This document shows positions 9,362-62,974 of a stretch of 64,000 nt of DNA, in pieces (the stretch's first letter is position 1; each line of letters opens with the position of its first letter). Location: positions 252,935 to 316,934 of the forward strand of contig NZ_SEWZ01000002.1 in NCBI RefSeq assembly GCF_004307425.1, read 5' to 3'. Below the pieces are notes generated by a model that was not told the DNA's origin, did not search any database, and was given only the letters and a program-made list of their open reading frames with translations. Position numbers and translations under genes: made by a program. The stretch comes from Aquirufa antheringensis. Lineage in GTDB: Bacteria; Bacteroidota; Bacteroidia; Cytophagales; Spirosomataceae.

Positions 9362-10151
9362 TTGGGTCGGCCATCGGAATACCAGTAGCTTCCGAAATTC
9401 GTTGGCAAATTTCTTCGATTGAATCTGATTCTTTAAAGCGAATCGGGTCTTTGAACTCCACGCTCAAAGTCGTGTTACGTTTCTTTAAGAAGAAGCCTTT
9501 CTTGTCAAAGGCGCGGCGGAAACCGTTGATTTGGACAGGAACGACGATGGGATTTGCGGCCTTAATGAGGTGCGCAGTTCCTTTTCTGATGGGGGCAAAT
9601 GGACGCGTAGTTCCTTGTGGGAAACTAACTACCCAGCCAAAATTTAGGCCTTTAATAACCTTCGCTTGGGCTTCTAAATCTACCTCCCGCTTTACATCCT
9701 GGCCATGTGCACGCCAGGAGCGATTCACTAAAATAGCCCCGGCTAACGAAAATACCCGGGGTAAAAAACCATCCTCCTTCATCGTCTCTAATGCCGCCAC
9801 GTAAAAAAGCCGAGAACGCGGAGCCAGTAAATAAAAAGGAAAGCGAATACTGTTATTCACCCGCCATTTCACGGAGAAAAAGATGTGGTAGAGGCAAATC
9901 ACGTCCATAAAGTAGGTTTGGTGATTCGATAAAAACAGAACGCCTTCGTGTGGTAAATCGATGATTTTTTCAGTCCCCTTAATCTCGGTTTTATTGTAAA
10001 TGCTCAAGCGAGCAAAGGTTAACCAGCCTAGAATAAACACGATGATTCGTTTCATTCCGATCGGGTTCCCAAACGGGTCACGACGCACCAGACCCCAGCG
10101 GTCTAAGCAATCAAAAAAATGCTGTAAAAAGGTTATACTCTTAAAATCCAC
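9351..10151 (-). CDS. plsC: 1-acyl-sn-glycerol-3-phosphate acyltransferase family protein
   Basis: A 266-residue membrane-associated PlsC-type acyltransferase making phosphatidic acid or a related lipid. The catalytic histidine lies in LSNHQTYFMD (His77, Asp83): five residues separate His and Asp instead of the canonical four. The glycerophosphate-binding motif is FPQGTTRPFAPIRKGTAHL. A hydrophobic stretch near residues 35-50 is a probable membrane anchor. It overlaps the giant exported protein gene by 11 bases and recO by 11 bases. Confidence 0.85.
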   Translation of the reverse strand: MDFKSITFLQHFFDCLDRWGLVRRDPFGNPIGMKRIIVFILGWLTFARLSIYNKTEIKGTEKIIDLPHEGVLFLSNHQTYFMDVICLYHIFFSVKWRVNNSIRFPFYLLAPRSRLFYVAALETMKEDGFLPRVFSLAGAILVNRSWRAHGQDVKREVDLEAQAKVIKGLNFGWVVSFPQGTTRPFAPIRKGTAHLIKAANPIVVPVQINGFRRAFDKKGFFLKKRNTTLSVEFKDPIRFKESDSIEEICQRISEATGIPMADPNAN

Positions 10152-13100
10152 CGCTCTTCTCTTTGCCTTTCTTGGCTGGTTTTGTTTTTGTTGGTTCTAT
10201 CTTAGCCGGCGCTTTCTTCACCGGAATCAATGGTTTGTAATAGGTAGTGAAGCGCTTGATAAACGCATTTTTTTCTTCTGCAGCCGCCTCCACTACTTTT
10301 ATTCCGCCTTTTTTCTGTGTCTTCATCGACTCACGCACTGTGGCTAAAAAGGAATTGTCAGAAGAATAAACACCTAACTCTCCCTCAAAATAAGCGAAAT
10401 AATACCAAAGATCTTCGGATAATTCCCAATAGGCGTAAAACTCTTCCTTGTTTGGCTTCTTCACCACCTCCATCATCCCCTTCACCGTAGCATTCACATC
10501 TACCGGCCCCACATGAATCAAAGGCAGATCCCCTATCGAATAAAAAGCACTCAAATTAGGCGACCAAGCCCATTTTACAGAAGAGAAATTAATCATGCTG
10601 GCGAATTCAGGATCCACTTTATCCAAGGCCAAATGCTCCCGATCCATTCTGGCTTTCGTGGCCTCCGGAATTTTTTTGCCTAAAATCGGCTCTACCCGCT
10701 TCAAGTATTCGTCTCGATCCGCCGGCTCATCCGCCGCAGCTGTAAGTAATCCCTCTTCTAAATTGTATTTCACAATGCGATCGCCCATTTTCTGTAGAAT
10801 GGGAACCGGCACTTGAAACTGTAAACTGAGCCAAGATTCGATGCGCGGAATCAGCGTGTCGATGGACATCGAAATCTTACCAAAAGACCGTACCAGCTTA
10901 TTTCCCGTGAATAATTGCACCATCCCGTCCGTGTCCACGCGCTTTTTCGGAATCGATAAATGCATCTGCGATTCCGCATTTTTAATGCTGTACACTTCGG
11001 ACGCTTCCGTCACTTCGCCGGCCGCTTTGAACAAGACTGGGTCGTCTTCATTCGACATGGGACCTAGGAAAGAGGGGTATAATTTATTCGCCGCATTCAC
11101 GAAAATACCGGCGGTGACCGAGCGACCGAGTTCGTCTTTTAACTCGTCGTTTACCACAATTCCCTTCGAATTCGCGAATGGAATCCAGGCCGTTTTGAAT
11201 TTCAGGGTGCCTAATAAGGGCCGGATGGATCCTTTGAATTCCAAGCTCGGTTTTTCAGAAAGGAAATACACATCGCCTTTGAATTCTTGGTGTGCCGTTA
11301 ATTTTAAAGGCGTTTTCTCGATGTAGCGTGCCTCGGCTCGGATTCCTTCAGGCAGAAAATCGAAGTTCTTCATCGGAATCATCAAGCTGTCGCTTCCCTC
11401 CACCGGCAACAAGTAATTCGCTGTTCCCGTAAATCGATTCGCGTTAGCGGTAACGGTGTTGATGTTTGCCAAAACATGGCCATTCACCGTCGCCCTCGCT
11501 CCTACTAAAGATTTAAATTGGCCACCCTTCGCGATAGCGAGTAAGCCTTTTGCTGGATAAACGGTTGCAGGCCCAATCTCGATTTCTTTCACGCCTTCTA
11601 GCGAAATGACCTCAGAAACTTGATCCAGCACCCCAAATTTCGCGGTGATGGGCCCTGCTTTCGAAGTGGAATCTAAGATGTGTAAAACAGGCTTCTGTAG
11701 TTTGATCTTTTGGTTTTTTTGCTCCCAAACCGCTCCTGCGTAAGTCGTGGAATACCCTTGAATCGGCAAGACAGCTTTCGCATCTTCCACCGCTTTAAAG
11801 TTCAGATTCACCGCGCCGGGTGCAGCTTCGATAGAAATCCGTTCCGCCTGGAATACCGGTTTCTTCAAACCTATGGTGAGCGATGCATCCTTCGATTTCC
11901 ACGTCGCAGGTTGGAAATAATACAGTTCTGATTTCAGTTTTCCATCACCTAAGGTAATGTCGCCCTTCCCAAAAACCTGCTTCTTGTGCATCCAAACCGG
12001 ACCCTCTAATTGCAATTGATTCGCATAGAGCGCAAAGGAATTCTTCTCCGGATAAATGGCTAGGGAATCCTCGCGTGGCAACCAGGTGAATCGGTGTCCT
12101 GGCAGACTCGCAATGGGGCCTTTCTTGTTCGCCATCTCCCCTAGTTTCCCTTCGGAGCCGACACTAATTAGCGAATCCGGATACAGGAAGGCCTCTTTTA
12201 GCGTGGATTGGAACCCATCCATCGAGAAAAATCCTGCCGTGTGGAGGCCCTTTTTGTCCATTTCCAGTGGGGCGCTTAGGCTGAGGTTGGCCTTGTTTTG
12301 ATAGATTTTAAGGGGCGTTTTCTGAGTATAGGTAAAGCCAAAACTTTGGTCCGGCTTCAAGATCAATTGCGTGTTTAAAGCAGGAACTAGTCCTTTGGAA
12401 TGGAAAGTACCCACAAATACGGGCGCCTTTTGCGTCAAACTATCTAATGCAATGCTGGGCACCTTAAAATAGTAGGTCGAATCATACACCCCATTCGCGC
12501 GCCAGGGCTCGTCGAAGTGGGCGGTCATTCCCTTGGGAATAATCAATTTAGGGTATTCTGCTACGCCAAAACGTCCCGACTTATTTCCTGGTGGACTCAA
12601 AATAAGCGAACCAGATCCGTAACGAAAAGCCCCTCCAAACTCCTTGGATTGGCCTTTAGGGATAAAAGTGATCGAATCAATCTGCGCAAATTGCGCGGTA
12701 AAGTCGTTGAACTTGAAGGCAAAATCTGGGCCTCGGAAACGGTAATCACCGATCTTGATTTCGCCTAGGAAGTTGAAGTCGCGCCCTTTTTGGAAAGTCA
12801 ACGCCTCATCATACGGAATAAATTCCGCCTTCAGCGAGTCCGAAATCATTACCTGCTGGATGCCCCGAATGCGCAATTTCTTGTCTACTAAATCGAGGGA
12901 AATCGAGGCCGAATCCGCATCGAGATTTTCGCCCATCGAGGCCGCATAAAAGGTGTCAAAATCCTTTTTCTCATACGCCACACGTGCATAATGCCGCCCC
13001 AAAGCCGTAAAAGAATACAACCCGTCCACCACTTGCATATAGCCCGCATCCACATAGGACTGAAAACCGGATTGAATCTGCTCCGGCCGGCGATTCACTA

Positions 13101-14076
13101 AAACAGCTAGGTCGCCGATGGTCGCCGCCTCTACTTTATTCTCCACTACATAGCGGTACAGAATCCGCATAGGGCTATAATTCAACAAGCCTTGTAATTC
13201 CTGAATGCGGCCGTCGTTGTAATAATCCTTCGACTCAAGCCAGGCTGGAACTTGGTTTCGTCCGGAAATTTGGTAAAAATCGATGCGCTTTTCCTTCACC
13301 CTTAACACCCCTAAATCCACCGACATCCGCATCTCGTGGAACGTGTCTTCGAACAAGGCGCGATTCGTGGCACCGGTTAATTTTTTAAAATGGAAGGTCT
13401 GGTTTTTCGGATAATACTGACCGGCTAAATCCCTTCTTGTGAGCGAATCGTTTTCGCTTAATGGACTACTCCAGCGACCTTGCGGAACGACAATTGACGA
13501 GTCTGGCAAGAACCAGATCAGTGGCGCAGCCATCGTTCCCAGCTGTTGGAAATGCAAAGCCCCGTCCCTTAAACCTTTCCGCAGATCCTTGAAAACGGGT
13601 TTCCCCTCCGCTTTCCAGACATCGCCGATCATTTCGGTGGCTTCGGTTCCCTTAAATTCAAAGGGAAAGTATTTGTCTTTGCGCCGTAAGGTGAGTGATC
13701 CCTCGCCATTCAGCGCTTTTTCCTGCTCAATCCAGTCCGCCGAAATAAATCGAAGCGTTCCATTCGCCGGTTGAAATTGCATCGCATCGATTTGTAGACG
13801 TGCGTTCTTGTGACCTAGTTTTTCGCCTTGAATTTCTCCGCCTTTGGCTGTGCCGGTTTTCGACTTTTCGTCCCACGAAAATTCCGTCACTTGAAAAACG
13901 AGGCTATCATTCGCGACGCGGTAAGTGATTTCCGAGGGCCCCCACTGGTTCTTCTCTTTCTGAGCGCTATTCACGCGCAGCGAATAGGGCCCCACCTGAA
14001 TCTTTTGCGCAGAAAGGCTAAAGCTCAGGGCGAGGGTGAAAAGTAGGATGCGAAAGAAAGTGATCGTATTCTGCAT
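10141..14076 (-). CDS. Giant exported protein of unknown function (1311 aa)
   Basis: First gene of a four-gene operon (with plsC, recO and M61). The frame is open to 14241, but the ATG at 14076 gives a clean signal peptide (MQNTITFFRILLFTLALSFS) and avoids overlap with kdsC, so that start is chosen. The body is a long series of beta-rich segments. Around residues 295-365 (QGLLNYSPMRILYRYVVENK and on) it looks like a winged-helix module, which is surprising in an exported protein. The last ~25 residues are a Lys/Pro-rich tail. It belongs to a large Cytophagales-type periplasmic or envelope protein group I recognise only as hypothetical. No enzyme motif is seen; a scaffold or cell-surface role is a guess. 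Confidence 0.75.
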   Translation of the reverse strand: MQNTITFFRILLFTLALSFSLSAQKIQVGPYSLRVNSAQKEKNQWGPSEITYRVANDSLVFQVTEFSWDEKSKTGTAKGGEIQGEKLGHKNARLQIDAMQFQPANGTLRFISADWIEQEKALNGEGSLTLRRKDKYFPFEFKGTEATEMIGDVWKAEGKPVFKDLRKGLRDGALHFQQLGTMAAPLIWFLPDSSIVVPQGRWSSPLSENDSLTRRDLAGQYYPKNQTFHFKKLTGATNRALFEDTFHEMRMSVDLGVLRVKEKRIDFYQISGRNQVPAWLESKDYYNDGRIQELQGLLNYSPMRILYRYVVENKVEAATIGDLAVLVNRRPEQIQSGFQSYVDAGYMQVVDGLYSFTALGRHYARVAYEKKDFDTFYAASMGENLDADSASISLDLVDKKLRIRGIQQVMISDSLKAEFIPYDEALTFQKGRDFNFLGEIKIGDYRFRGPDFAFKFNDFTAQFAQIDSITFIPKGQSKEFGGAFRYGSGSLILSPPGNKSGRFGVAEYPKLIIPKGMTAHFDEPWRANGVYDSTYYFKVPSIALDSLTQKAPVFVGTFHSKGLVPALNTQLILKPDQSFGFTYTQKTPLKIYQNKANLSLSAPLEMDKKGLHTAGFFSMDGFQSTLKEAFLYPDSLISVGSEGKLGEMANKKGPIASLPGHRFTWLPREDSLAIYPEKNSFALYANQLQLEGPVWMHKKQVFGKGDITLGDGKLKSELYYFQPATWKSKDASLTIGLKKPVFQAERISIEAAPGAVNLNFKAVEDAKAVLPIQGYSTTYAGAVWEQKNQKIKLQKPVLHILDSTSKAGPITAKFGVLDQVSEVISLEGVKEIEIGPATVYPAKGLLAIAKGGQFKSLVGARATVNGHVLANINTVTANANRFTGTANYLLPVEGSDSLMIPMKNFDFLPEGIRAEARYIEKTPLKLTAHQEFKGDVYFLSEKPSLEFKGSIRPLLGTLKFKTAWIPFANSKGIVVNDELKDELGRSVTAGIFVNAANKLYPSFLGPMSNEDDPVLFKAAGEVTEASEVYSIKNAESQMHLSIPKKRVDTDGMVQLFTGNKLVRSFGKISMSIDTLIPRIESWLSLQFQVPVPILQKMGDRIVKYNLEEGLLTAAADEPADRDEYLKRVEPILGKKIPEATKARMDREHLALDKVDPEFASMINFSSVKWAWSPNLSAFYSIGDLPLIHVGPVDVNATVKGMMEVVKKPNKEEFYAYWELSEDLWYYFAYFEGELGVYSSDNSFLATVRESMKTQKKGGIKVVEAAAEEKNAFIKRFTTYYKPLIPVKKAPAKIEPTKTKPAKKGKEKSGGF

Positions 14077-14128
14077 AAAGGGATAAAAATACATAAAATA
14101 TTCAGATATTTGGGTCAAAATAATCCCT

Positions 14129-14638
14129 ATGTCTAACGTACTTTCCTTATTCTCAGCTATTAAAGCCTTTATTTTTGACATCGACGGTGTGATGACGGAC
14201 GGCAATGTACACGTTCTGGAGACAGGCGAACATTTCCGCACCTTCTACATCCGCGATGGCTATGCGCTAGAAAAAGCGCGGGAGGCTGATTTTCAACTGT
14301 GCGTTATCACAGGCGGAAGTCATCCAGGGGTCAAAAAACGTTTAGAAAACCTCAAGTTTCAACACATCTATTTCGGTTTAGGCGGGAAAGATAAATTAGA
14401 AACCTACCTCGAATTATTGCCCAAATTAGGGGTCAAAGAAAATGAAATCCTATATATGGGCGACGATATGGCGGATTTAAAAGTCCTGTCTCGTCCAGAT
14501 ATTTTAAGCACTTGTCCGGCAGATGCGATTCCTGAATTGCACCAAGTCGTGAAATACGTTTCTCCTTTTAATGGTGGCCGCGGTGCGGTGAGAGATGTGA
14601 TTGAAAAAGTATTAAAACTCCAAGGAAAATGGGCTTAA
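14129..14638 (+). CDS. kdsC: 3-deoxy-D-manno-octulosonate 8-phosphate phosphatase (KdsC family)
   Basis: A 169-residue cap-less HAD-IIIA phosphatase. Motif I is DIDGVMTDG (Asp17, Asp19), motif II is CVITGG, and motif IV is YMGDDMADL. Length and motifs match KdsC, which removes the phosphate from KDO-8-P for lipid A-core synthesis and works as a tetramer. It overlaps the gamma carbonic anhydrase gene by 10 bases. The gene upstream is divergent, with only 52 bases between. Confidence 0.9.
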   Translation: MSNVLSLFSAIKAFIFDIDGVMTDGNVHVLETGEHFRTFYIRDGYALEKAREADFQLCVITGGSHPGVKKRLENLKFQHIYFGLGGKDKLETYLELLPKLGVKENEILYMGDDMADLKVLSRPDILSTCPADAIPELHQVVKYVSPFNGGRGAVRDVIEKVLKLQGKWA

Positions 14639-29221: not shown

Positions 29222-30487
29222 TTAATGGCGAACCGCCTTCATCTGAGGCGAAATAAAATGAATTAATAACCACGCAAATAAATACGCGCAGCCACAAGCC
29301 ACAAATATAACATTATATCCGGCTGACAAAGCCTGGTCTGCCTTGTAGGAATCTAAAATGACTCCAATAATGTAGGGGAAAATCACGCCTCCTAGCGAAC
29401 CTGCCAAGCCACCGATGCCCACGACGGAGGAAACGGCGTGTTTGGGAAACATATCCGAAACCGTCGTAAAAATATTTGCCGACCAAGCCTGGTGCGCCGA
29501 TGCCGCGATGGAAATTAAGAACACCGCCTGCCAAATATCCGTTGCCCAGCGCGCCCCAATAATGGGCACCGCACAGAGCGCAAAGAAAAACATCGAATAC
29601 TTCCGCGCCTTGTAGACCGGCCAGCCTTTCTTCATCAACCAACCCGAAATATAGCCTCCGCCAATACTCCCGATCGAGGTACAGGTGAACAAAATCGCCA
29701 AATGCAAACTCGGCTTTTTCAAGTCAAGCGCGAAGGTCGTCGAGAAATAGGACGGCAACCAAAACAAGAAAAACCACCAGATGGGATCCGTGAAGAACTT
29801 GCCCACGATGAAGACCCAGGTTTGGCGATATCCAAAAAGTTTAGACCAGGCGATAGGTGCGACTTCGGACTTTTCTTCCTCAGACTGTATATGCGCTAAT
29901 TCTTCCGTAGTTACCGATTTGTGTTTCGCGGGAATTTCATAAAATACCCACCACAAAATCAACCAAATAAATCCGATCGCCCCCGTAATAATGAAGGCTT
30001 CTTGCCAGCCATAGGCGCCTAAAATCCAAGGCACCATAATGGGCGCGACCATGGCTCCTATGTTTGCTCCGGAATTAAAAATGCCCGTCGCTAAAGCTCT
30101 TTCTCTTTTAGGGAACCACTCTGCGACCGTCTTTATCGCCGCCGGAAAATTTCCCGCTTCCCCGGCTCCTAAAGCGGCGCGTGCCGCGCCGAACCCGAAC
30201 GAAGTCTTCGCCAAAGCATGCGCCATCGCCGCGAAAGACCAGATGACGATGGAGATGGCGTAACCCATTTTGGAACCAATCTTATCGATCACCTTCCCAA
30301 AAGCCAACAATCCGATCGCATACGACGCCGTGAAACACATCACGATGAAACTGTAATCCGTCTCCGACCAGTTCAATTCCTTCTCCAGCGTGGGCTTCAA
30401 CAAGCCAATCACCTGGCGATCCAAATAGTTAATCGTGGTCGCAAAAAACAAGAGGGCGACCACCACCCAGCGGTAATTTCCTTTCAT
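29222..30487 (-). CDS. MFS hexuronate-type transporter
   Basis: A 421-residue inner-membrane protein with twelve helices. It fits the anion:cation symporter branch of the major facilitator superfamily (ExuT/GudP type): TTINYLDRQVIGLLKPTLEK at the N-terminus and AARAALGAGEAGNFPAAIKT in helix 4. It likely imports glucuronate or related hexuronates with protons, which matches the adjacent alpha-glucuronidase and mannonate dehydratase. Its ATG overlaps the stop of the dehydrogenase gene (TAATG). Confidence 0.9.
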   Translation of the reverse strand: MKGNYRWVVVALLFFATTINYLDRQVIGLLKPTLEKELNWSETDYSFIVMCFTASYAIGLLAFGKVIDKIGSKMGYAISIVIWSFAAMAHALAKTSFGFGAARAALGAGEAGNFPAAIKTVAEWFPKRERALATGIFNSGANIGAMVAPIMVPWILGAYGWQEAFIITGAIGFIWLILWWVFYEIPAKHKSVTTEELAHIQSEEEKSEVAPIAWSKLFGYRQTWVFIVGKFFTDPIWWFFLFWLPSYFSTTFALDLKKPSLHLAILFTCTSIGSIGGGYISGWLMKKGWPVYKARKYSMFFFALCAVPIIGARWATDIWQAVFLISIAASAHQAWSANIFTTVSDMFPKHAVSSVVGIGGLAGSLGGVIFPYIIGVILDSYKADQALSAGYNVIFVACGCAYLFAWLLIHFISPQMKAVRH

Positions 30488-31245
30488 TAGAATCCGATTG
30501 AATTCCCGCCGTCAACCGGGATTGAGACGCCTGTTACATAATTGGATGCATCCGAAGCTAAATAAACCGCCGCCCAACCGATGTCTTCCGGTTTCCCAAA
30601 ATAGCCCATCGGCGTGCGATCCATCGCCTTGTGTTTGCGATCCGGATCCGAATTCATCGCCGTTCTACTCATCGCCGTTTCGATAAATCCTGGCGCAATC
30701 GCATTCACGCGAACGCCTTTGCCGGACCACTCAGAAGCGAGCACCCGCACTAAACCATAGATACCCGTTTTAGAAGATGCATAGGCCGCGACACGGTCGA
30801 TTCCATAATAAGCCGCCATCGAAGAGATCATGATGATGGATCCTTTTCCGCGTTCCAACATATGTTTCCCCACCTCTCGCGTCAGCGAGAAAACAGCATT
30901 CAAATTCACGTTAATGATGTTCGCAAAATCATCATCTGAAACTTCTACGGCCGGACGTTTCATGTTGATGCCCGCATTGTTGACGAGGATATCGATGGCG
31001 CCATGTTTCGCCACAAGATCCGAAACCAGCTGTGCCGTCAAGCTTAAGTCTGACACATCATTCACCGCATAATTTGCCCCAGCACCCAGATTTGCGACCG
31101 CCTCTTTTAGCACCTCTTCGCGGCGACCCGTGATCACGACTGTGGCGCCGGACGCTAAAAAGCATTTCGCGATATCGAATCCGATTCCGGTTCCGCCGCC
31201 CGTGATGAGCGCCACGCGCCCTTGCAATGAGAATGGTTGTTGCAT
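30487..31245 (-). CDS. SDR-family oxidoreductase, probable hexonate/mannonate dehydrogenase
   Basis: A 252-residue classical short-chain dehydrogenase. NAD(P) loop GGGTGIG (16-22), NNAG (89-92), catalytic Ser141/142 and YASSK (Tyr155, Lys159). It resembles gluconate 5-dehydrogenase/KduD-type enzymes. Placed one base after the uxuA-GH67 frame and before the hexuronate transporter, it most likely interconverts fructuronate and mannonate, the step before UxuA. The substrate is inferred from context only. Confidence 0.85.
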   Translation of the reverse strand: MQQPFSLQGRVALITGGGTGIGFDIAKCFLASGATVVITGRREEVLKEAVANLGAGANYAVNDVSDLSLTAQLVSDLVAKHGAIDILVNNAGINMKRPAVEVSDDDFANIINVNLNAVFSLTREVGKHMLERGKGSIIMISSMAAYYGIDRVAAYASSKTGIYGLVRVLASEWSGKGVRVNAIAPGFIETAMSRTAMNSDPDRKHKAMDRTPMGYFGKPEDIGWAAVYLASDASNYVTGVSIPVDGGNSIGF

Positions 31246-31246
31246 C

Positions 31247-34200
31247 TTATTTCAGTTGGTAAATACGTACAATTTCTTTTATTTCTGCCAAAGTCCGCGC
31301 AGGCGTCCCGTAGCTTATCGGTAATTTCGAATAGGTTTGGAAGTACAATAAATGGGCATCGCGCCACAATACCGACTCCCGTTGTTGCGACGCTAAACGT
31401 CCGCGAACATCCGCAAAAATCTCCGGATCCACCTTGCCTTGCAGCGAATCCCAGTCCTTTTGCAAATCCTTCACTCCCTGCAAACCGGAATTCATGCGGT
31501 AGCAGAATTCATCCCAAATCGTCCGCCCAGAAGTCAATTTCTCTTTCCAGCCCACATGGTGAAACCACAATAGATAATTCAAATCCGTCTTCGCAGGATC
31601 AAGCCATTGTTGTGCGACCGCCGGATGGTATAAACTTAAAGCATTGCTTCCCGACGCTTTTCGGTCAAAACCCAAGCCCACAGAATCCGCGCGATGGTAA
31701 TAAATCGACGTCCAGTCGGGGCGCTGACTACGCTCGAGCCAAGGCTCCGGGCCCCAGTGAATTCCCTGGCCCATCACGTGGTGCAAGCCTAGAGGCGTCG
31801 TAAATTTCACATAAGTGTCGCGGGATTTCATCAGAATATCCGAAGCCGTTTTCGCCGCTTTTTCGTCGTGGGTCAAGGTCTGCTTCACCCACTCGTCCGC
31901 AATTTTTTCGGAGCTCAAGGTGTGATCCCAAGCCAATCGGCCGAACGCATACCAGTTCGCTTGCGACAGTAAATGTCCTGTCCAGTTTCTGTCGGAACCC
32001 GTGTTTGCCACGCCCGCCATCATCGTGATTTGGTCGTTGCCCAGGCTGCCGTCGATGACTTTCGCGACGGTGGAACCCTTACCGTTTTGGTAGGTATCTG
32101 AATCCAAGCATTCCTTAAAGAGGATGGATTGGTAGAAAACGTTCGTGCTGAAACCCGTGTATTCTTGGGTGATTTGGAATTCTAATGCCAAAGGCGTCTT
32201 CGGCATCGCTCCGAAAAGTGGATGAAATGGTTCCCGAGGTTGGAAGTCAATCGGGCCATTTTTCACTTGAACGATCACGTTTTTCGCGAAAGTTCCGTCC
32301 AAAGGTTTGAAGTCGTTATAGGCTTCTTTGAAACGGTCGCCCTTCGGGTTAGGCGCATATACAAACGCGCGCCAAATGACAATTCCATTAAAGGGTTTCA
32401 CCGCCTCCGCCAACATATTTGCGCCGTCGGCATGTGTCCGACCGAATTCTTGTGGCCCCGGTTCGCCCTCTGAATTGGCTTTCACTAAGAAGCCCCCGAA
32501 ATCCGGAATCTGTGCATAAATCTCTTTGGTTTTGGAAGCCCAAAACGCACGAACCTGTGGATCCAAGGGATCTGAGGTTTTCAATTTCCCCACCAGTTTA
32601 GGCGAGGCAAAGTTCACTGATAAAAACAGTTTGATGCCGTAGGGTCGGAACACGTCGGCAAGCACTTTTACTTTCATTAAATACTCCGGCGTCATAAACC
32701 GCGCCGAGGCATTTACGTTGTTCACGGAGACCGCGTTGATCCCGATGGACGCGTTTGCCCGGGCGTAATCCGTGTAGCGCGGGTCGACCGTTTCCGGCAA
32801 TTCGTACCATTTCCACAGCGATTGCCCCGCGTATCCGCGCTCGATTGTGCCCATCACGTTGTCCCAGTGGTTCAACATGCGGAATTTGACTTTGGGCGAT
32901 GAGCTGAAGTTTGCCAAAGGTTTCTCCTGCTGAATCATCCTTAATAATTCGAAAACCCCGTACAAAATCCCGCGGTCAGAGCTGGCTTTTATTTGAATTT
33001 GCGGGCCTGCAACGATGCTAAAAGCTTCTTCTTTAAGACTCGGATCTTTCACGAATTGAATGCTTCCTTTCGACGTCGCGCTGATCGGCGCCACCCCTGT
33101 CAAACCCTTCAAGCCATTCGTTAATTCTTTCTTCGCCGTCTCTAAAATGGGCGTCGAGGCAAACTCGGATGAGATCGATTTCGCATACGGCGCATAGCGA
33201 GCCGAAGATGCGACTTTGTCAAATTTCAACCACAAGCGGTAGCCATCATCTGCCCTCAAAGCGAAACTACACACAACAAAAAACACCGCTAAAAAGGAGC
33301 GAATCGCTAGTTCTAGTCCGCGGATTTCCGCCAAACCGCGCAATCGTCCGATCGCCGAATAGCCTGGATAGGTTTTCTTTTTCAAATCATCTAACATTTG
33401 GTGACCATGATCTGGGCGCATCGGAATCTGTTCACCACCTCTTCTTTTTTCTTCTTCCACCACCGCTTTCACTACTTCAAACATATCCACATCACCCGTT
33501 AAATGCGGTGCCTCGTGGAAAATCAACGGGTCATTCTGTTCTCTAAATGTAGTCCGCAAATGCAAGAAGTGAATGCGATCTGCGAAGCGACGAACCATCC
33601 CTGGCAAATCGTTATCCGCTCTCACTCCTAATGAACCCGTGCAAAAAGTAATACCGTTCGCGCGTTCTGGAGAAGCATCCATCAATGCAGTCAAATCCGA
33701 TTCCGTACTCACCACTCGCGGCAAGCCTAATAAGGGGAAAGGAGGATCATCCGGGTGGATGCATAAATTAATACCCAATTCCTGTGCCAAAGGCGCGATG
33801 GATCGCACAAAATAGTGCAAGTTTTCGCGCAATTGATCCGCAGAAATGTCTTTGTATTCGTCTAAAAGACTTTGGAAATTCTCTAAGTGAAAAGCCTCCT
33901 CTGAACCGGGAAGACCTAAAAGTGCGGTGTTTTTTAACTCTGCTTTTTCTTCGTTCGTCATTGTGGCGAAACGCTGAGCCGCCGCAGTCTGAACCGCCGG
34001 CGTGTAATCTTTCGAGGCCCCGGGACGTTGTAAAATATGCAAATCAAACACCGCAAAATCCGTCCAAACAAAACGCAATGCGCGTGCGCCATCCGGCATC
34101 TCAAAGTTCAGTTTTGTCCGCGACCAATCAAGCACGGGCATAAAATTATAGCACACGGTTTTAATCCCGCAAGCCGCGAGATTTCGTAATGATATCTTGT

Positions 34201-34456
34201 AATTTTCTATGAGTTGATCGCGCGACGACAAGGCTTTCTTAATCCCCTCGTGCACTGGCAGCGATTCCACGACTGACCATTGCAAAGGTGTCCAATCCTG
34301 ATTCCCCGCTTCAATAATCGATATACGCTCTTGAATGGACTCGGTAGGCCAAACTTCCCCCACCGGAATTTGGTGCAATGCAGTCACGACCCCTGTACAT
34401 CCGGCTTGACGAATATCCATCAAGGAAACCGGATCGTTCGGACCGAACCAACGCAT
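31247..34456 (-). CDS. uxuA: Mannonate dehydratase (UxuA) fused in frame to GH67 alpha-glucuronidase
   Basis: One open frame of about 1070 residues (numbering here from an alternative ATG at 34468; the family start is the ATG at 34456). Residues 5-388 are a complete UxuA, the cytosolic enzyme that dehydrates D-mannonate to 2-keto-3-deoxygluconate, with CIHPDD (His238), Cys276, His303 and RPDHGHQ (Asp353, His354). Residues 389-405 ([18 protein letters not shown]) are a Sec signal peptide lacking its own ATG. Residues 406-1073 are a GH67 alpha-glucuronidase, with acid Glu667 (NSEGEPGP) and Asp741/Glu769 as base pair, matching Cellvibrio GlcA67A spacing. Separately encoded enzymes normally act on opposite sides of the inner membrane, so the fusion is odd; see findings. 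It heads the operon with SDR and MFS genes. Confidence 0.9.
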
Positions 34457-34476
34457 CGTGTGTATCATTGTATTTT

Positions 34477-37256: not shown

Positions 37257-38651
37257 CTACTCTACCGCCGAAGCTAGCTTAAAAGTCCACGCATACTGAC
37301 ACGGACTATTCCCCGGTGTAACCGCCGGTGGTACGATGCTGACAACGCCATTTTTATACGTCGACTTAACTGGCGTTGAAGACCCTACTAGCGTAACCGA
37401 AGTCGGTTTTTTCACACCAGCCACTTGAAGCGCGGCCGTCGGGAATTCTGTCGTAATCAGGTATAAATCGTTGCCCTTTTGAGTGAAGAATTGTTTGGTG
37501 GCGGGCGTGACCTTAGGAGCTTTGGCCCACTTACGCGTACTATAAATCCCCTCGCCATTCACCTTTAACCAAGACCCGATGTCCGTCAAACGTTGCTGCA
37601 TAATCACCGGAATCCGGCCATCCGCAGTGGGCCCGATGTTCAGCAATAAATTACCTCCGCGCGCCACCTTATTAATCAACATGTGCACGAGCTGCTCAGA
37701 GCTGGAATAGTCCTCGAGATTTTCGTTTCGGTTATAGCCAAAAGATCCGGCGATGCCACGGCATTCCTCCCAAGGTTTGGCAAAATCCAAACCATTCGCA
37801 TCCCCATTATGGACTAAATCGTATTCCGTGGTGTAAAATCCACCGTGCTTACTGCGCGTTTCCTTGCCCCAGCGATCGTTCACGACTACACTTTCGCGCA
37901 CTGGCGAATCGTTGTATAACCAAGACAAAAACTCCGTGCTGCGCAACTTATCCGACGTATAATCCCACTCGCCATCTGTCCAAACCAAATCCGGATGATA
38001 CGTATTCACCAAGTCCTTCATCTGCGGGAACATGTGTTGGTCGATATACTCGTTCAGCGTCTCCTTTTTATACAAGGGATTGTACCACTCGAGCAGCGAA
38101 TAATAGTAGCCCATTTTGATGTTTTTGCTTTTGACAGATTTGGTCAAATCCCCTAATAAATCCCGGTGTGGACCCACATCCACCGCATTCCAATTCCACG
38201 ATTGTTTTGATGGCCAAAGCGTAAAACCCTCGTGGTGTTTCGACGTCAACACGACATATTTTGCGCCCGCATTTTCGAACAATTTTGCCCACTCATCTGG
38301 CTGAAAAAGCTCGGCTTTAAATTGATTTGTGAAGTCTTGGTATTTGACATTGGGCCCAAAAGCCTTGTTATGAAAATCCGTAAAGAAATGCTGCGTCTTA
38401 TTCGGCTCTTGCCAGCGACGCCAGTACCATTCCGCATAGCGATCGTACACGCCCACTTTATCTCTGGCAGTCGGACTATAAGCCGGCACAGAATACAATC
38501 CCCAGTGAATGAATATGCCAAATTTCGCATCTTCGAACCAACCCGGTACCGGGCGGCTGTCGATGGATTCCCAATTGTTTTGGTAGGTTTTTTGGGCGAA
38601 TGCGTTGCCCGCGAAAAGGCAAAGTGCCAGAATTAATAACTTGATTTTCAT
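37257..38651 (-). CDS. GH29 alpha-L-fucosidase
   Basis: A 464-residue exported enzyme (signal peptide ending GNAFAQ). GH29 features are KFGIFIHWGLYSVPAY (N-terminal strand of the barrel), VVLTSKHHEGFTLWPS, and VWTDGEWDY with Asp226 as the probable nucleophile. A C-terminal beta domain follows. It removes alpha-linked fucose from glycans in the periplasm or outside. It is divergent from the zinc dehydrogenase gene with 53 bases between, and a second GH29 gene lies at 61673. Confidence 0.92.
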   Translation of the reverse strand: MKIKLLILALCLFAGNAFAQKTYQNNWESIDSRPVPGWFEDAKFGIFIHWGLYSVPAYSPTARDKVGVYDRYAEWYWRRWQEPNKTQHFFTDFHNKAFGPNVKYQDFTNQFKAELFQPDEWAKLFENAGAKYVVLTSKHHEGFTLWPSKQSWNWNAVDVGPHRDLLGDLTKSVKSKNIKMGYYYSLLEWYNPLYKKETLNEYIDQHMFPQMKDLVNTYHPDLVWTDGEWDYTSDKLRSTEFLSWLYNDSPVRESVVVNDRWGKETRSKHGGFYTTEYDLVHNGDANGLDFAKPWEECRGIAGSFGYNRNENLEDYSSSEQLVHMLINKVARGGNLLLNIGPTADGRIPVIMQQRLTDIGSWLKVNGEGIYSTRKWAKAPKVTPATKQFFTQKGNDLYLITTEFPTAALQVAGVKKPTSVTLVGSSTPVKSTYKNGVVSIVPPAVTPGNSPCQYAWTFKLASAVE

Positions 38652-46061: not shown

Positions 46062-46196
46062 TTTGGCTTTTTCTTTGATTTTTAAACATTCTGTGCAAAT
46101 TTTCGGTTTGAAAACCAAATAAACGTTTGGCATTCAGTATAAAACCCAAATTAATTCTATCATTTTTTAACCCAATTTTTGCAAAATTCATCGCTT

Positions 46197-49100
46197 ATGA
46201 AAACAAAAATTACTAGCCTTTTGACACTAATCTTAGTGTTCATGATGCAGGTATCGTTCGCCCAGAAAGCAACGAAAACTGTAACAGGTACGGTAGCAGA
46301 TGAGAACGGCCAACCTTTAGTGGGCGCATCTGTCATCGTAAATGGAACAAAAACGGGAACAAACACAGACAAGTCTGGTAAGTTCTCGATTGCGGCCGCG
46401 GATGGCCAAAGCTTAACTTTCAGCTTCGTAGGTTACAACAAATCTACGGTCGCTGTAACAAGTGCCACTTCATCTGTTCAAGTAGCCTTAACATCTGACA
46501 ATACGTTAGATGAAGTTATCGTAACCTCTTATTCTACGACAACAAGACAATCCTTTACAGGTACGGCGAAAGTCGTAGATGCGAAAAACATCGAGCGTAA
46601 AAACTTCTCTAACATCTCTAAGGGATTAGCGGGTGAAGCAGCCGGTGTGACTGTCATCAACTCATCTGGACAACCAGGTACTTCAGCGGCTATTCGTATC
46701 CGTGGTATCGGTACCGTTAATGGTAGCCGTGGCCCACTTTACGTGTTAGACGGTGTGCCTTTCGAAGGAAACATTAACTCGATTAACCCAGGTGATATCG
46801 AAAACACCACTATCTTAAAAGATGCGGCTGCAACAGCGATCTACGGTTCTCGTGGAGCAAATGGTGTGGTGGTAATCAACACAAAAAGAGGTAGTAAAAC
46901 AGGGGATGCTGTGATTGAACTTGAATTAAAATCAGGCCAAAACATGAGCTTATTACCTCGTTACAGCACCATCCGTAACCCAGAGCAATACATTGGTTTG
47001 ACTTGGGAAGGCTGGTATAACAGAGGTGTGGCCTTGGCTAACGCTAACCCTACGGCTTATGCAAACACAAACTTGTTTGCAAACATGCCTAACTACAATA
47101 TGTGGACTGTTCCAGCGGCTCAATTAATTGATCCTACTACAAGACAAGTCGTTCCAGGAACACCGCGTCGTTATATCCCGGAGAACTGGGCTGATTACGC
47201 ATTCCAAAACTCGAATCGTAACGAAGCAAACTTGAAAATCTCAGGAGGAAATAGCAAGACTCGTTATTTCGCCTCTTATGGTGCATTAGAAGATGTAGGT
47301 TACTCTGTAAACACAGATTACAAGCGTTATTCTACTCGTTTGAACTTGACGCATAACCCTAAGTCTTGGTTAAGCTCGACTACAAACATCGGTTACTCTT
47401 ACGGTGTGACAAACAACCCAGGTCAAACATCTGACTCAGGATCTGTATTCTGGTTTGTGGATAACTTGCCACCGATCTATCCTTTATTCTTACACGATAA
47501 CACAACATCTCAATACGTACGTGATCCATACTACAATGGATACCAATACGATTACGGTGTAGGTCGTGGTTTTGGTGCGTTAACGAACTCGATTGCTGAT
47601 GCTAAATTAGGTATCCGTAACACGAAATCACACGATGTAAACGCAGCGACTTCATTGAATATTCAAATTACGCCTGCTTTGTCATTAGAAAACAAATTAG
47701 GTTTACAATATTCAAACGCTTCTTTGGATAACCAAAACAACCCTTTCTACGGTCCTAACGCAGGTCAAGGTGGTTATATCTACAAGCAGAAAACGGAAAC
47801 CTTAAACTACAACTTGTTAAACTTATTACGTTACAAGAAGTCGTTTGATGTGCATAACTTCGAAGCATTCGTTGCACACGAGAGCTATGCGACAGAAACG
47901 AAGTACATGTGGGCGTCTATGTACAAGTTAGTGATGCCAGACGGTGTTGAATTCAACAACGCGGTTATCTCTAACCCTCCTCAATCGTACTTAAATAACT
48001 ACTCATTAGAGTCGTATTTTGGACAATTGAACTACGATTACGATGGCAAATACTTCTTATCTGCTACCGTAAGACGTGACGGATCTTCTCGTTTCTTGAA
48101 AAACAAATGGGGTGATTTCGGTTCCGTAGGTGCTGCGTGGTTAGTATCTAAGGAGGCATTTATGGACAATGTTCCAGTGATCAAAGACTTGAAGTTAAAG
48201 GCTTCTTATGGTCTAATTGGAGAGCAAGGTGGTATCGGTCTATATCCTGGATATGACTTATTCCAAGTACAAAACTTGAACTCTAACATCTCTTTATCAT
48301 TCGTTTCAAAGGGTAACCCAGATTTAACGTGGGAGATTTCAAAGCAAATGCAAGTAGGTGCTGAATTCAAATTAGGCAAATTCGTAGATGTTGCGATTGA
48401 TTACTACACAAAGACGACTGATAACTTGATCTTCGATCGCCGTGTAGGACCTTCCGTAGGTTATGCGTCTCTTCGTGTGAATGATGGTGCTTTACGTAAC
48501 ACAGGTATCGAATTCGATGTAACAGCTCACTTATTACAATCGAAGAAAAACTACTTAGACTTCACGATTAATGGTGAATTGATTGAGAACCGTATGTTAC
48601 GTTTACCAATCGACCCAGCAACGGGTAAAGAGAAGATCATCGATATCGATGGTATCTACGGTAGAGCAGTAGGTCACTCGATCTTTGATTTCTATACACG
48701 TGAGTTTGCAGGTGTGAATCCAGAGACGGGTGTTTCTGAGTGGAACGTCTATTGGGCAGATGCAAATGGTGACAATGTGCGTCAAGCAACAGAAAACATC
48801 AAGTCAATGGCTGATTTCGAAGCGACTGCTACAGCAGAGACATTGAAAACAGTGAAGGTGTCTCGTACAGCTACGTATGCGGATGGAACAACTAAGTTCA
48901 TTAACAAGTCCCCATTCCCTACCGTTAGAGGAGCGTTTACGTTAAATGGTGGATTAGGAAACTTTGACATCAGTGCACAATTCCTTTACAGCTTAGGCGG
49001 TTACGCTTATGATGGTGCTTATGCTGGTTTAATGAACTCAGGTGGTGCTGCAGGTGGAAATAACTACCACACAGATATCTTAGCACGTTGGACAAAAGCA

Positions 49101-49409
49101 GGTATGGCAACTGATGTACCTCGTCTATCAGCTGGTCAAGATGCAAACGTAAACTCTGCATCGACTCGTTTCATTACGAAATCAGATTTCTTAACGTTAA
49201 ATAACATTCAGATCGGATATAAAGTCCCTAGCAAATTCTTCACGAATAGCCCTATTACAGGTGTGTACCTTTGGGTATCTGGAGATAACTTGTTCTTAGC
49301 TTCAGCTAGAAATGGTTTCAACCCAAGCTCAGCGGAAACAGGAAGCTCTGATCAATACCGTTACTCGCCATTGTCTACTTTGACAGCAGGCTTACGCGTT
49401 AAGTTTTAA
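46197..49409 (+). CDS. susC: SusC/RagA-family TonB-linked outer-membrane receptor
   Basis: A 1070-residue outer-membrane transporter from the ATG at 46197 (signal peptide ending QVSFAQ). A carboxypeptidase-D-like domain (about 25-105, TVTGTVADENGQPLVGASV) precedes the plug (about 115-230, ILKDAAATAIYGSRGANGVV) and a 22-strand barrel ending LTAGLRVKF. It imports an oligomer held by the SusD partner, powered by TonB. Codons are biased toward a small set (TTA, CGT, GGT, AAC), as in highly expressed genes. The substrate is not evident: no glycosidase or regulator gene is adjacent. Confidence 0.95.
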   Translation: MKTKITSLLTLILVFMMQVSFAQKATKTVTGTVADENGQPLVGASVIVNGTKTGTNTDKSGKFSIAAADGQSLTFSFVGYNKSTVAVTSATSSVQVALTSDNTLDEVIVTSYSTTTRQSFTGTAKVVDAKNIERKNFSNISKGLAGEAAGVTVINSSGQPGTSAAIRIRGIGTVNGSRGPLYVLDGVPFEGNINSINPGDIENTTILKDAAATAIYGSRGANGVVVINTKRGSKTGDAVIELELKSGQNMSLLPRYSTIRNPEQYIGLTWEGWYNRGVALANANPTAYANTNLFANMPNYNMWTVPAAQLIDPTTRQVVPGTPRRYIPENWADYAFQNSNRNEANLKISGGNSKTRYFASYGALEDVGYSVNTDYKRYSTRLNLTHNPKSWLSSTTNIGYSYGVTNNPGQTSDSGSVFWFVDNLPPIYPLFLHDNTTSQYVRDPYYNGYQYDYGVGRGFGALTNSIADAKLGIRNTKSHDVNAATSLNIQITPALSLENKLGLQYSNASLDNQNNPFYGPNAGQGGYIYKQKTETLNYNLLNLLRYKKSFDVHNFEAFVAHESYATETKYMWASMYKLVMPDGVEFNNAVISNPPQSYLNNYSLESYFGQLNYDYDGKYFLSATVRRDGSSRFLKNKWGDFGSVGAAWLVSKEAFMDNVPVIKDLKLKASYGLIGEQGGIGLYPGYDLFQVQNLNSNISLSFVSKGNPDLTWEISKQMQVGAEFKLGKFVDVAIDYYTKTTDNLIFDRRVGPSVGYASLRVNDGALRNTGIEFDVTAHLLQSKKNYLDFTINGELIENRMLRLPIDPATGKEKIIDIDGIYGRAVGHSIFDFYTREFAGVNPETGVSEWNVYWADANGDNVRQATENIKSMADFEATATAETLKTVKVSRTATYADGTTKFINKSPFPTVRGAFTLNGGLGNFDISAQFLYSLGGYAYDGAYAGLMNSGGAAGGNNYHTDILARWTKAGMATDVPRLSAGQDANVNSASTRFITKSDFLTLNNIQIGYKVPSKFFTNSPITGVYLWVSGDNLFLASARNGFNPSSAETGSSDQYRYSPLSTLTAGLRVKF

Positions 49410-49430
49410 TTTTTTAAACGAAATAGAAAG

Positions 49431-50885
49431 ATGAAAACAGTATATAAATTTTTATTTGCGGCTGTCCTAATGGGAACAGTTAGTTGTAAAGAAGAATTTT
49501 TGCAGACGGAACCGACCGAATTTATTTCAGCGAATCAAATCGCAGAAGCCTCTGCTTTAAATCCAAGTTTACAATCTGCGAACGTAGCAGGTATTTATGC
49601 AACGATGTATGGCGCGGGAACGGGCGGTACAACGGGTCACGATGACTTTGGTCATAAATCATACGATATGTATGGTGACTTACTTTCTGGTGACATGGCT
49701 TTAACTTCGGTTATCTATGGCTGGTTCAGAACGATTACAGAATTCCAAACAACAGTAGATTATACTTTCCAAGATAACTACCAAGTATGGCGTTTCTACT
49801 ACCGCCTTATCTTTGCTGCTAACACAGTCATCGATGGTTTAGGTGGAAGCGATGCAGTTCCAGCAACGGCAGCTGGTCGTTGGTACATGGGTCAAGCTAA
49901 GGCAATGCGTGCCTTCTCGTATTTCTACTTAGCGCAGTATTTCCAAAACGAATACAACCCTTCTGAGAAGATTTTACCTTTGTACAAAAATACAACTGAT
50001 CCTAACTTGCCTAAGAGCACAGCGGCGGATGTATATGCGTTAATGGTGAAAGATTTAACAGATGCGCAGACTTTGTTAGCAGACTTTAATCGCGCTAATA
50101 AATCGGAAGTAAACGCTTCAGTAGCGAAAGGTATGTTAGCGTATGTTCACGGTGCGATGGGTAACAACGCAGCGATGAAGTCTGTAACGGCTGATGTAAT
50201 CGCAACAGGTGGTTTCAAAATCATGACAGCTGCGGAAGCAACAGGTGGTTTTAATAACCTAGCTACTAGCCAGTGGATGTGGGGTGTAGACATCACAGTA
50301 GATTCGAAGTTAAACTTGATCTCTTGGTGGGGCCAAATGGACCTTTACACGTACTCATACGCCTGGGCGGGTGATATCAAAGGGATGGACAAAGCTCTTT
50401 ATGACTTAATCCCAGCGAATGACATCAGAAAAGCGCAATTCGCAACAGCGAGCAAACTAGCTCCTATTGGTAAGTTCTACCACCCGAACAAAGTGATCGG
50501 TGGTCAAAGAACAATCGACGCGGATTATATCTACATGCGTGTGGAAGAGATGTACTTGTTAAATGCAGAAGCTTGTGCTAAAACAGGTGATGAAGCAGGC
50601 GCAAGAAAATCGTTAAAAGCTATCATGGCGCTACGTGTTCCTGATGCATCTTACATCGATGCATTGACTGGAAAAGCGTTATTAGATGAGATTTACTTAC
50701 AGACTCGTATTGAGCTTTGGGGTGAAGGAAAGTCGTACTTATCATTGAAGCGTAACAAGGGAACTGTGAATCGTGGTGCTAACCACTTAAAATTTGTAGG
50801 AACTCCTATTCCTTCGAACGATACACGTTTAACTTTCAAGATTCCAATCGAAGAAGTTCAAAACAACCCGAACTTGAACAAGTAA
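49431..50885 (+). CDS. susD: SusD/RagB-family outer-membrane lipoprotein
   Basis: A 484-residue lipoprotein (lipobox MGTVSC-K, Cys19), the substrate-capturing lid of the SusC channel. Typical TPR-like helices and SusD features include AKAMRAFSYFYLAQYF and the C-terminal YMRVEEMYLLNAEACAKTGD with RIELWGEGKSYLSLKR. It follows susC by 21 bases and shares its codon bias. A strong terminator follows directly. Confidence 0.94.
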   Translation: MKTVYKFLFAAVLMGTVSCKEEFLQTEPTEFISANQIAEASALNPSLQSANVAGIYATMYGAGTGGTTGHDDFGHKSYDMYGDLLSGDMALTSVIYGWFRTITEFQTTVDYTFQDNYQVWRFYYRLIFAANTVIDGLGGSDAVPATAAGRWYMGQAKAMRAFSYFYLAQYFQNEYNPSEKILPLYKNTTDPNLPKSTAADVYALMVKDLTDAQTLLADFNRANKSEVNASVAKGMLAYVHGAMGNNAAMKSVTADVIATGGFKIMTAAEATGGFNNLATSQWMWGVDITVDSKLNLISWWGQMDLYTYSYAWAGDIKGMDKALYDLIPANDIRKAQFATASKLAPIGKFYHPNKVIGGQRTIDADYIYMRVEEMYLLNAEACAKTGDEAGARKSLKAIMALRVPDASYIDALTGKALLDEIYLQTRIELWGEGKSYLSLKRNKGTVNRGANHLKFVGTPIPSNDTRLTFKIPIEEVQNNPNLNK

Positions 50886-61672: not shown

Positions 61673-62974
61673 ATGAAAAAAGTACTTTTACTATCGTTGT
61701 TGCTAACCAGCACGCTGGTTTTCAGCCAAACTTACTCCCCTACTCCCGCAAATCTAGCGGCGAGAACGGACTTCCAAAACAATAAATACGGTCTTTTCGT
61801 ACACTGGGGCATCTCTTCGATGCTAGCCGATGGCGAATGGGTAATGAACAACCGGAAGATCGAAAAGAAAGATTACCAACGCCTATTGAAGGGCTTTTAT
61901 CCGTCTGAATTCAATGCAGCCGAGTGGGTTTCTGTGGCCAAGAATTCCGGCATGAAATACATTATTTTCATCACGCGCCACCACGATGGTTTCTCGAATT
62001 GGGACACACAGCAATCGGATTGGAAGATCACGAATACGCCGTTTAAGCGAGATGTGCTGAAGGAATTAGCGGCGGAATGCAAGAAGCAGGGGATTAAACT
62101 GGGTTTATACTATTCCACTTTGGACTGGTACCGCGATGATTATCCGCGGGAAACGGGGCGCACGGGACAAAACTCCGGCAGAACAGGCAAGAGCGATTAC
62201 GCGTCTTATTTGAAATTCATGAAGGCGCAGTTAACGGAATTATTGACGAACTATGGCGAGATTTCGAATATTTGGTTTGATGGCCATTGGGATCAAACGA
62301 ATCCGGAGGGAAATAAGGATCGCAGCTCGCGGATTGATTGGAAATACGATGAGATTTATGGCTTGATTCACTCGATTCAGCCGGCGTGTATGATCGGGAA
62401 TAACCACCATTTGGATCCGATTCCAGGAGAAGATTTCCAAATGTTCGAACGAGATCTTCCAGGCGAAAATCTACATGGTTTGAGCTTTCAAACGGCGTCT
62501 GCTTTGCCTTTGGAAACCTGCGAAACCATCAACGGCGCCTGGGGATACAACATGAACGACCACAAGTACAAAACGCCTACCCAAATCCACCAGTTAGTAG
62601 TGGGCGCAGCAGGTCGCAATGCGAACTTATTATTGAACGTGGGCCCCATGCCTACAGGCAAGATTCAACCGGAATTCACGGATAGTTTAGCAGTAGTAGG
62701 CAAGTGGCTAGAGGCGAACGGCCGTTCGGTTTATGGAACGCGCGGAGGTCCGGTGAAACCGCAACAATGGGGTGTTACAACGGAGAACGCGAGCAGCGTA
62801 TTCGTGCATTTGTTCCGCAAACCGAGTGAAGAGAGTATGTTCATTCCAGGCAAATACAAGAAGGCATCCGTTTTAAATGGCGCCGCTGTAAAAGCTAAAA
62901 TCGAGAAGGATGGAATGCGAATTCTGGTGGCGGATGTGCCGATGGGGACGCAGGTGATCGAACTTATAAAATAA
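61673..62974 (+). CDS. GH29 alpha-L-fucosidase (second copy)
   Basis: A 433-residue exported enzyme (signal peptide ending LVFSQ). Barrel features: KYGLFVHWGISSMLADGEW, IIFITRHHDGFSNW and IWFDGHWD with Asp203 as likely nucleophile. It lacks the WYWRRW-type insert of the fucosidase at 37257 and is only a distant paralogue, so linkage specificity may differ. It ends at a strong bidirectional terminator. Confidence 0.91.
   Translation: MKKVLLLSLLLTSTLVFSQTYSPTPANLAARTDFQNNKYGLFVHWGISSMLADGEWVMNNRKIEKKDYQRLLKGFYPSEFNAAEWVSVAKNSGMKYIIFITRHHDGFSNWDTQQSDWKITNTPFKRDVLKELAAECKKQGIKLGLYYSTLDWYRDDYPRETGRTGQNSGRTGKSDYASYLKFMKAQLTELLTNYGEISNIWFDGHWDQTNPEGNKDRSSRIDWKYDEIYGLIHSIQPACMIGNNHHLDPIPGEDFQMFERDLPGENLHGLSFQTASALPLETCETINGAWGYNMNDHKYKTPTQIHQLVVGAAGRNANLLLNVGPMPTGKIQPEFTDSLAVVGKWLEANGRSVYGTRGGPVKPQQWGVTTENASSVFVHLFRKPSEESMFIPGKYKKASVLNGAAVKAKIEKDGMRILVADVPMGTQVIELIK

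Follow-up and report, generated by a model that had tools for sequence, protein, structure and literature searches.

An open reading frame joining mannonate dehydratase to a GH67 alpha-glucuronidase across a signal-peptide-like junction in Aquirufa antheringensis and its relatives

In the window, by which we mean the whole stretch of 64,000 nucleotides that was analysed, a single open frame of 1073 amino acids (31247-34468, minus strand, ATG start) joins a D-mannonate dehydratase, UxuA, to a GH67 alpha-glucuronidase. The fused frame is beyond chance and error, being free of stops in other assemblies of the same genus and in isolates of other genera. Its recurrence in 22 species, isolates among them, together with purifying selection on both halves, marks a real fusion rather than a sequencing error, and probably a useful one. 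Our preferred reading, which we hold with somewhat more confidence than doubt, is that the conserved fusion is translated as one UxuA-signal-GH67 chain from which GH67 is exported, signal peptidase I probably cutting after Ala406. A cytosolic and a periplasmic enzyme would then share one chain, possibly having come to do so more than once in evolution. This suggests that where an annotation takes its name from just one of the halves, the remaining half, or its location in the cell, would be missed. In the open-licence PubMed Central literature we found no published UxuA-GH67 fusion among the matches listed.

Two complete enzymes in one frame

The features on which the analysis rests are as follows.

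31247..34468, minus strand: fused uxuA-GH67 gene, an open frame with the same stop-free course in 22 species, the window's included
33296..34468, minus strand: UxuA half (residues 1-391), D-mannonate dehydratase, matched by TIGR00695 and NF003027, with 4eac as closest solved structure
33251..33304, minus strand: junction (residues 389-406), with basic R390, a hydrophobic core and Ala406 at the expected signal peptidase site; A406 is invariant in 16 fused proteins
33302..33304, minus strand: ATT codon of Ile389, also kept in the GH67-less relatives L013 and L014
33289..33295, minus strand: TTTTTAG, a run of T ending in a TAG that is out of frame, shared by all 10 fused species of the genus, its role possibly none
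31250..33250, minus strand: GH67 half (residues 407-1073), predicted alpha-glucuronidase, with the Pfam GH67 N, M and C domains, of the 1gqi family
30487..31245, minus strand: SDR dehydrogenase, KduD-like though below the equivalog cut-off, starting 1 base after the fusion's stop
29222..30487, minus strand: MFS transporter, by profile match nearest the D-galactonate transporter subfamily though below its cut-off

The earlier note had read a complete UxuA running without a stop into a complete GH67 enzyme, and profile matches over the 1073-residue frame bear this out. Residues 1-391 match TIGR00695 over its full length (534 bits against a curated cut-off of 199.55), and residues 3-389 align to positions 23-407 of the 414-residue chain of 4eac, which we take to be E. 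coli UxuA. The GH67 half carries the Pfam N domain (residues 412-508, 35.2 bits, cut-off 24.3), the middle domain (514-829, 486.7 bits, cut-off 23.5) and the C domain (830-1053, 276 bits, cut-off 27). Key residues are kept in both enzymes across the 16 fused proteins: H238, C276, H303 and D353, presumably the His, Cys, His and Asp metal ligands of UxuA, are invariant, as are E667, D741 and E763, which we take to be the GH67 catalytic acid and two further carboxylates. E667 aligns with the position at which 1gqi has E and 1h41 has A, both entries presumably being Cellvibrio GH67 alpha-glucuronidase, and D741 and E763 fall within matching motifs. The GH67 half is named here as a predicted alpha-glucuronidase with putative activity on aldouronic acids.

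The genome (2.5 Mb, 99.55% complete) has GH67 at this one place. A second, stand-alone UxuA (L002, G000:C2:6784-7968) is 58% identical to the UxuA half, and a like second match (55-59%) is found in 34 of the 37 genomes of the genus searched, its own included. Beyond the SDR and MFS genes the same strand continues with a glucoamylase-like gene and then further genes. Elsewhere in the window, two alpha-L-fucosidase family genes and a TonB receptor/SusD-like pair (37257-38651, 46179-50885, 61673-62974) make the region rich in glycan-use genes, and 10141-14241 holds a 1366-residue frame that begins with GTG and matches nothing in Pfam at E 1e-5.

Recurrence among relatives and selection on both halves

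A search of 59 genomes, the window's own included, found the full stop-free frame in six other genomes of the genus; two more (G003 and G035) are stop-free across the junction up to the contig end, and in another (G027) the GH67 piece is cut by the contig end with the junction out of view. Wherever the upstream junction is in view in this genus, GH67 is fused (10 of 10). Across 222 genomes of the family, again with its own, the stop-free join occurs in 22 species of 10 genera (20 complete, 2 cut), and reading the junctions gave 31 stop-free loci, these 22 plus 9 records that seem to be the same species again. Named isolates with the fusion are Sandaracinomonas limnophila, Persicitalea jodogahamensis, Arundinibacter roseus and Dyadobacter frigoris. 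When 395 genomes sampled across the class were searched, 25 of them had a match at E 1e-200 or better, and both halves are spanned by the window's own match alone.

Among 104 classed GH67 loci, after 15 duplicates or fragments were left out, 14 are fused and 90 are not: 52 have an adjacent but separate uxuA, and 38 have none in view, a class that includes loci with only 1.5 kb of flank, beyond which a uxuA may lie. For the 161 family genomes with a strong match, the junction was read where loci had been fetched and in 20 extra cases, the rest being counted as split from separate half-matches. None of those 20, for 16 of which a frame over 1100 aa had been reported and for 4 one of 782-920, is fused: 16 have an in-frame stop, 3 have GH67 in another frame and 1 has no uxuA upstream. 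The stop-free flag of one locus (L160) was discounted, UxuA lying downstream of GH67 such that there is no junction. Two loci come from metagenome-assembled genomes titled Spirosoma fluviale, a title that looks wrong in both: the genes of one (L098, on the same contig as L014) are nearest those of the window's genus, and those of the other (L094) nearest Lacihabitans.

Comparing the locus in relatives was one of the checks that the earlier note had proposed, and GH67 loci of the genus have neither a stop nor an ATG at the junction, while distant, separate genes do have the stop. Its proposal that the two genes were fused by loss of the stop/start region gains support in the same way, since adjacent genes in relatives have a stop between them, the window's lineage has none and the fused state has been maintained.

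In the window's genus, purifying selection acts strongly on each half. Among 8 complete fused sequences of the genus, dN/dS is 0.030 for UxuA, 0.052 for the junction and 0.039 for GH67, with dS of 1.21, 0.69 and 1.23, respectively. There would have been more than enough time for the junction to acquire a stop. Synonymous sites at the junction show mild conservation (percentile 0.945-0.982 in windows that start at residues 381-391, 0.895 at 395), which could mean an embedded signal, although other windows of the fused gene are conserved to the same degree or more.

Repeated changes between fused and separate states

On a combined UxuA and GH67 tree of 53 rows, 20 of them fused, the fused state requires four changes, three of which are forced by well supported branches. 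A single origin was rejected (AU p=0.002) when the 14 fused rows among 46 were held together. The 46-row tree left out 20 near-duplicate adjacent rows; the 53-row tree left out 4 more and added 11. Locus L085 was dropped when a tree of the classed GH67 loci was built. The four changes fit gains or losses alike.

A finer pattern is seen within the window's genus. On the UxuA tree, a locus without GH67 (L013) falls among the fused ones, and monophyly of the ten fused UxuA sequences of the genus is rejected (p 0.002). In L013 the UxuA sequence closes with AIRSTLN and a stop codon, and the SDR gene comes immediately after. Several loci of the genus (L013, L014, L017-L022) are UxuA orthologues without GH67 and with the SDR gene directly next. 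The placement of L013 suggests that a GH67 block has been exchanged while both flanks were conserved, so that GH67 appears to enter and leave as one unit, with uxuA on one side of it and the SDR gene on the other.

A signal-peptide-like junction

Between the halves, as had been noticed before, lies a stretch resembling a signal peptide with no ATG anywhere in the junction (residues 389-406), and the codon at 33302-33304 is indeed ATT, that of residue 389. In-frame GTG codons occur at residues 395 and 399, within the hydrophobic core, and in-frame TTG codons at residues 376 and 379, farther upstream in UxuA. Fused junctions share a basic residue, an uncharged core of 11-19 residues, a small or aliphatic residue at -3 and Ala at -1, followed by DDGY, the signal-peptide call being based on such simple sequence features. 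We compared 20 fused junctions with 89 leaders of split GH67 genes, once 3 loci lacking a Met start and 2 lacking the motif had been set aside and identical junctions merged. The longest uncharged stretch of the fused junctions lies within the 8-24 residues of the split leaders. Ala stands at -1 in 20 of 20 fused junctions (with L, A, V or T at -3) and in 74 of 89 split leaders, where 11 have Gly instead, a difference that is not significant (Fisher p 0.068); the 11 leaders with Gly are longer at the median (30 against 20.5 residues). This contrast at -1 fits a kept cleavage site. The chain of 1gqi begins at the corresponding residue, reading EDGY against DDGY, in a weak separate local alignment (10.6 bits).

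Export by the Tat route was considered and rejected, a single Arg preceding the core in the window's genus and in Sandaracinomonas. The RR or KR found before the core in some other fused members matches UxuA's own C-terminal motif, present in split UxuA too.

A first AlphaFold model from a shallower alignment of 16 rows was poor (mean pLDDT 65, with residues 355-388 and 397-412 under 50), and an alignment of 86 rows, 13 of them fused, was adopted in its place. The model from this alignment (mean pLDDT 89, pTM 0.66) has both enzymes well folded, the last helix of UxuA (372-401) leading on into the hydrophobic core; pLDDT is about 71 at 391-400 and falls below 50 at residues 401-406. The model gives this continuity of helix and core moderate confidence.

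How the chain may be made and where it may go

In the preferred reading a single chain would be translated and UxuA would fold in the cytosol. The last helix of UxuA would continue into the hydrophobic stretch, such that UxuA's C-terminal basic residue would serve as the n-region of an internal Sec signal. GH67 would then cross the inner membrane and signal peptidase I would probably cut after Ala406, giving a periplasmic GH67 and leaving UxuA with a hydrophobic tail in the inner membrane. The genome also has a signal peptidase I family gene, a GH10 gene and, elsewhere, UxaC.

That the cut is made at all is the point on which a rival reading turns, namely that the chain stays whole as a bitopic enzyme of the inner membrane, UxuA lying on its inner side and GH67 on its outer. 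This is our second choice and we think it unlikely. The continuous helix at 372-401 in the AlphaFold model and the basic residue on the cytosolic side of the core speak for it; an uncharged stretch that is short for an anchor, and the Ala at -1 in every fused junction where some split leaders have Gly, speak against it. The earlier note had raised just such an anchored chain, and its topology fits, but a permanent bridge seems less likely than a cut chain, given the retained Ala at -1 and a core no longer than those of split signal peptides. Alternatively, GH67 may also, or solely, be started inside the 3' end of uxuA, the missing stop being a by-product of an in-frame overlap, which we rank third and regard as improbable. 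Outside the genus, 9 of the 12 fused species have an ATG in the nine codons from a conserved Gly, as do 16 of the 68 other UxuA genes compared (Fisher p 0.001). With GTG and TTG counted as well, the figures are 12 of 12 and 31 of 68 (p 0.0003). Left out of this comparison were 11 duplicate loci and UxuA genes under 65% identity, and the p values are naive in that the tree holds only 3-4 independent contrasts. The ATG often belongs to UxuA's own motif (GLEM), however. Within the window's genus those nine codons hold an ATG in 0 of 10 and a TTG in 1 of 10, although 9 of 10 species do have TTG codons 26-29 codons ahead of the point where the GH67 alignment begins. The exception, L140, lacks ATG, GTG and TTG alike throughout the 23 codons that precede the core GTG. 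Initiation at the ATT, suggested earlier along with a nearby GTG or TTG, finds no support, the codon being equally kept in UxuA genes of the genus that end with a stop and have no GH67. Internal initiation thus appears disfavoured in the window's genus, and a separate GH67 product is quite possible in the other fused genera.

Two further explanations concern the reading of the gene itself. In the genus alone, slippage at TTTTTAG might give a mixture of fused chain and of UxuA that stops at this point: slipping by a single base within the run of T would end UxuA at residue 392. The motif's presence in all ten fused species of the genus and the raised synonymous conservation at the junction speak for it; the motif is, however, absent from the junctions of the other fused lineages compared, Phe and Leu codon bias may suffice to account for it, and other windows of the gene score at least as high for synonymous conservation, such that we consider slippage very unlikely. 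For an assembly error or a decaying gene we found no supporting point. The same junction recurs in other assemblies and isolates, on which ground assembly error was rejected, and strong purifying selection on both halves argues against decay, which leaves this explanation with next to no credence.

Returning to the single exported chain, we are evenly divided over a broader claim: that this is a repeatedly fixed two-compartment fusion in carbohydrate catabolism, in which UxuA's last helix doubles as the start of an export signal, such that one translation would give a periplasmic hydrolase and a membrane-tethered enzyme at a fixed ratio, or possibly an uncut bifunctional protein across the membrane. 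The suggestion that the join links release of glucuronate to its catabolism fares less well. The substrate of UxuA is D-mannonate, which lies downstream of uptake, an isomerase and a reductase. Because UxuA would work only after import and two further enzymes (UxaC being encoded elsewhere in the genome), one would not expect a direct hand-over from GH67. The join more likely pays through a fixed dosage, a tether to the membrane or economy of genome space. To our knowledge, fusions usually join parts that work in one compartment. The gene offers a testable system for asking how the Sec route recognises a signal that lies 390 residues from the start of an enzyme, and why the join has been kept.

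Comparison with known systems

As separate proteins both halves are familiar. The GH67 half resembles the Cellvibrio enzyme (1gqi, 1h41) in sequence family and key residues, and the UxuA half resembles 4eac over residues 3-389, these differing from the fusion in having been solved as stand-alone enzymes. The adjacent uxuA and GH67 genes typified by Hymenobacter and Larkinella have the same order and homologues as the fusion but at least one stop between them, or another frame. In separate adjacent pairs the aligned ends lie roughly 110-530 bases apart, a distance that includes the UxuA tail and the signal peptide.

In FbcH, two proteins are made as one chain and an internal signal peptide is cut by signal peptidase. 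UxuA-GH67 would share the single chain of two proteins and the internal signal peptide, its cleavage being predicted, and of the features of an FbcH-like precursor it has a frame that runs stop-free through the signal peptide and, by simple features, suitable residues at -3 and -1. The two differ in that both FbcH products reside in one membrane complex, whereas UxuA would be soluble and cytosolic and GH67 periplasmic, within the same catabolic route. In two passages of PMC12456017, fbcH is described as encoding a fused cytochrome b/c1 subunit. Hepatitis C virus core-E1 offers another parallel: as described in PMC5402940, the signal peptide of the exported protein forms the end of the cytosolic protein before it, and signal peptidase parts the two while leaving the first anchored. 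We use this as a working analogy only, the viral polyprotein being processed in the eukaryotic ER, and claim no sequence relation. The uncut alternative has a counterpart too. PknB-type kinases have a large cytosolic N-terminal domain, one membrane span and an exported C-terminal part, which is the same layout, although the kinase anchor is uncut and the domains are unrelated. Precursors with an internal signal are already known, and the UxuA-GH67 case would be one in which a cytosolic enzyme stands before a periplasmic hydrolase.
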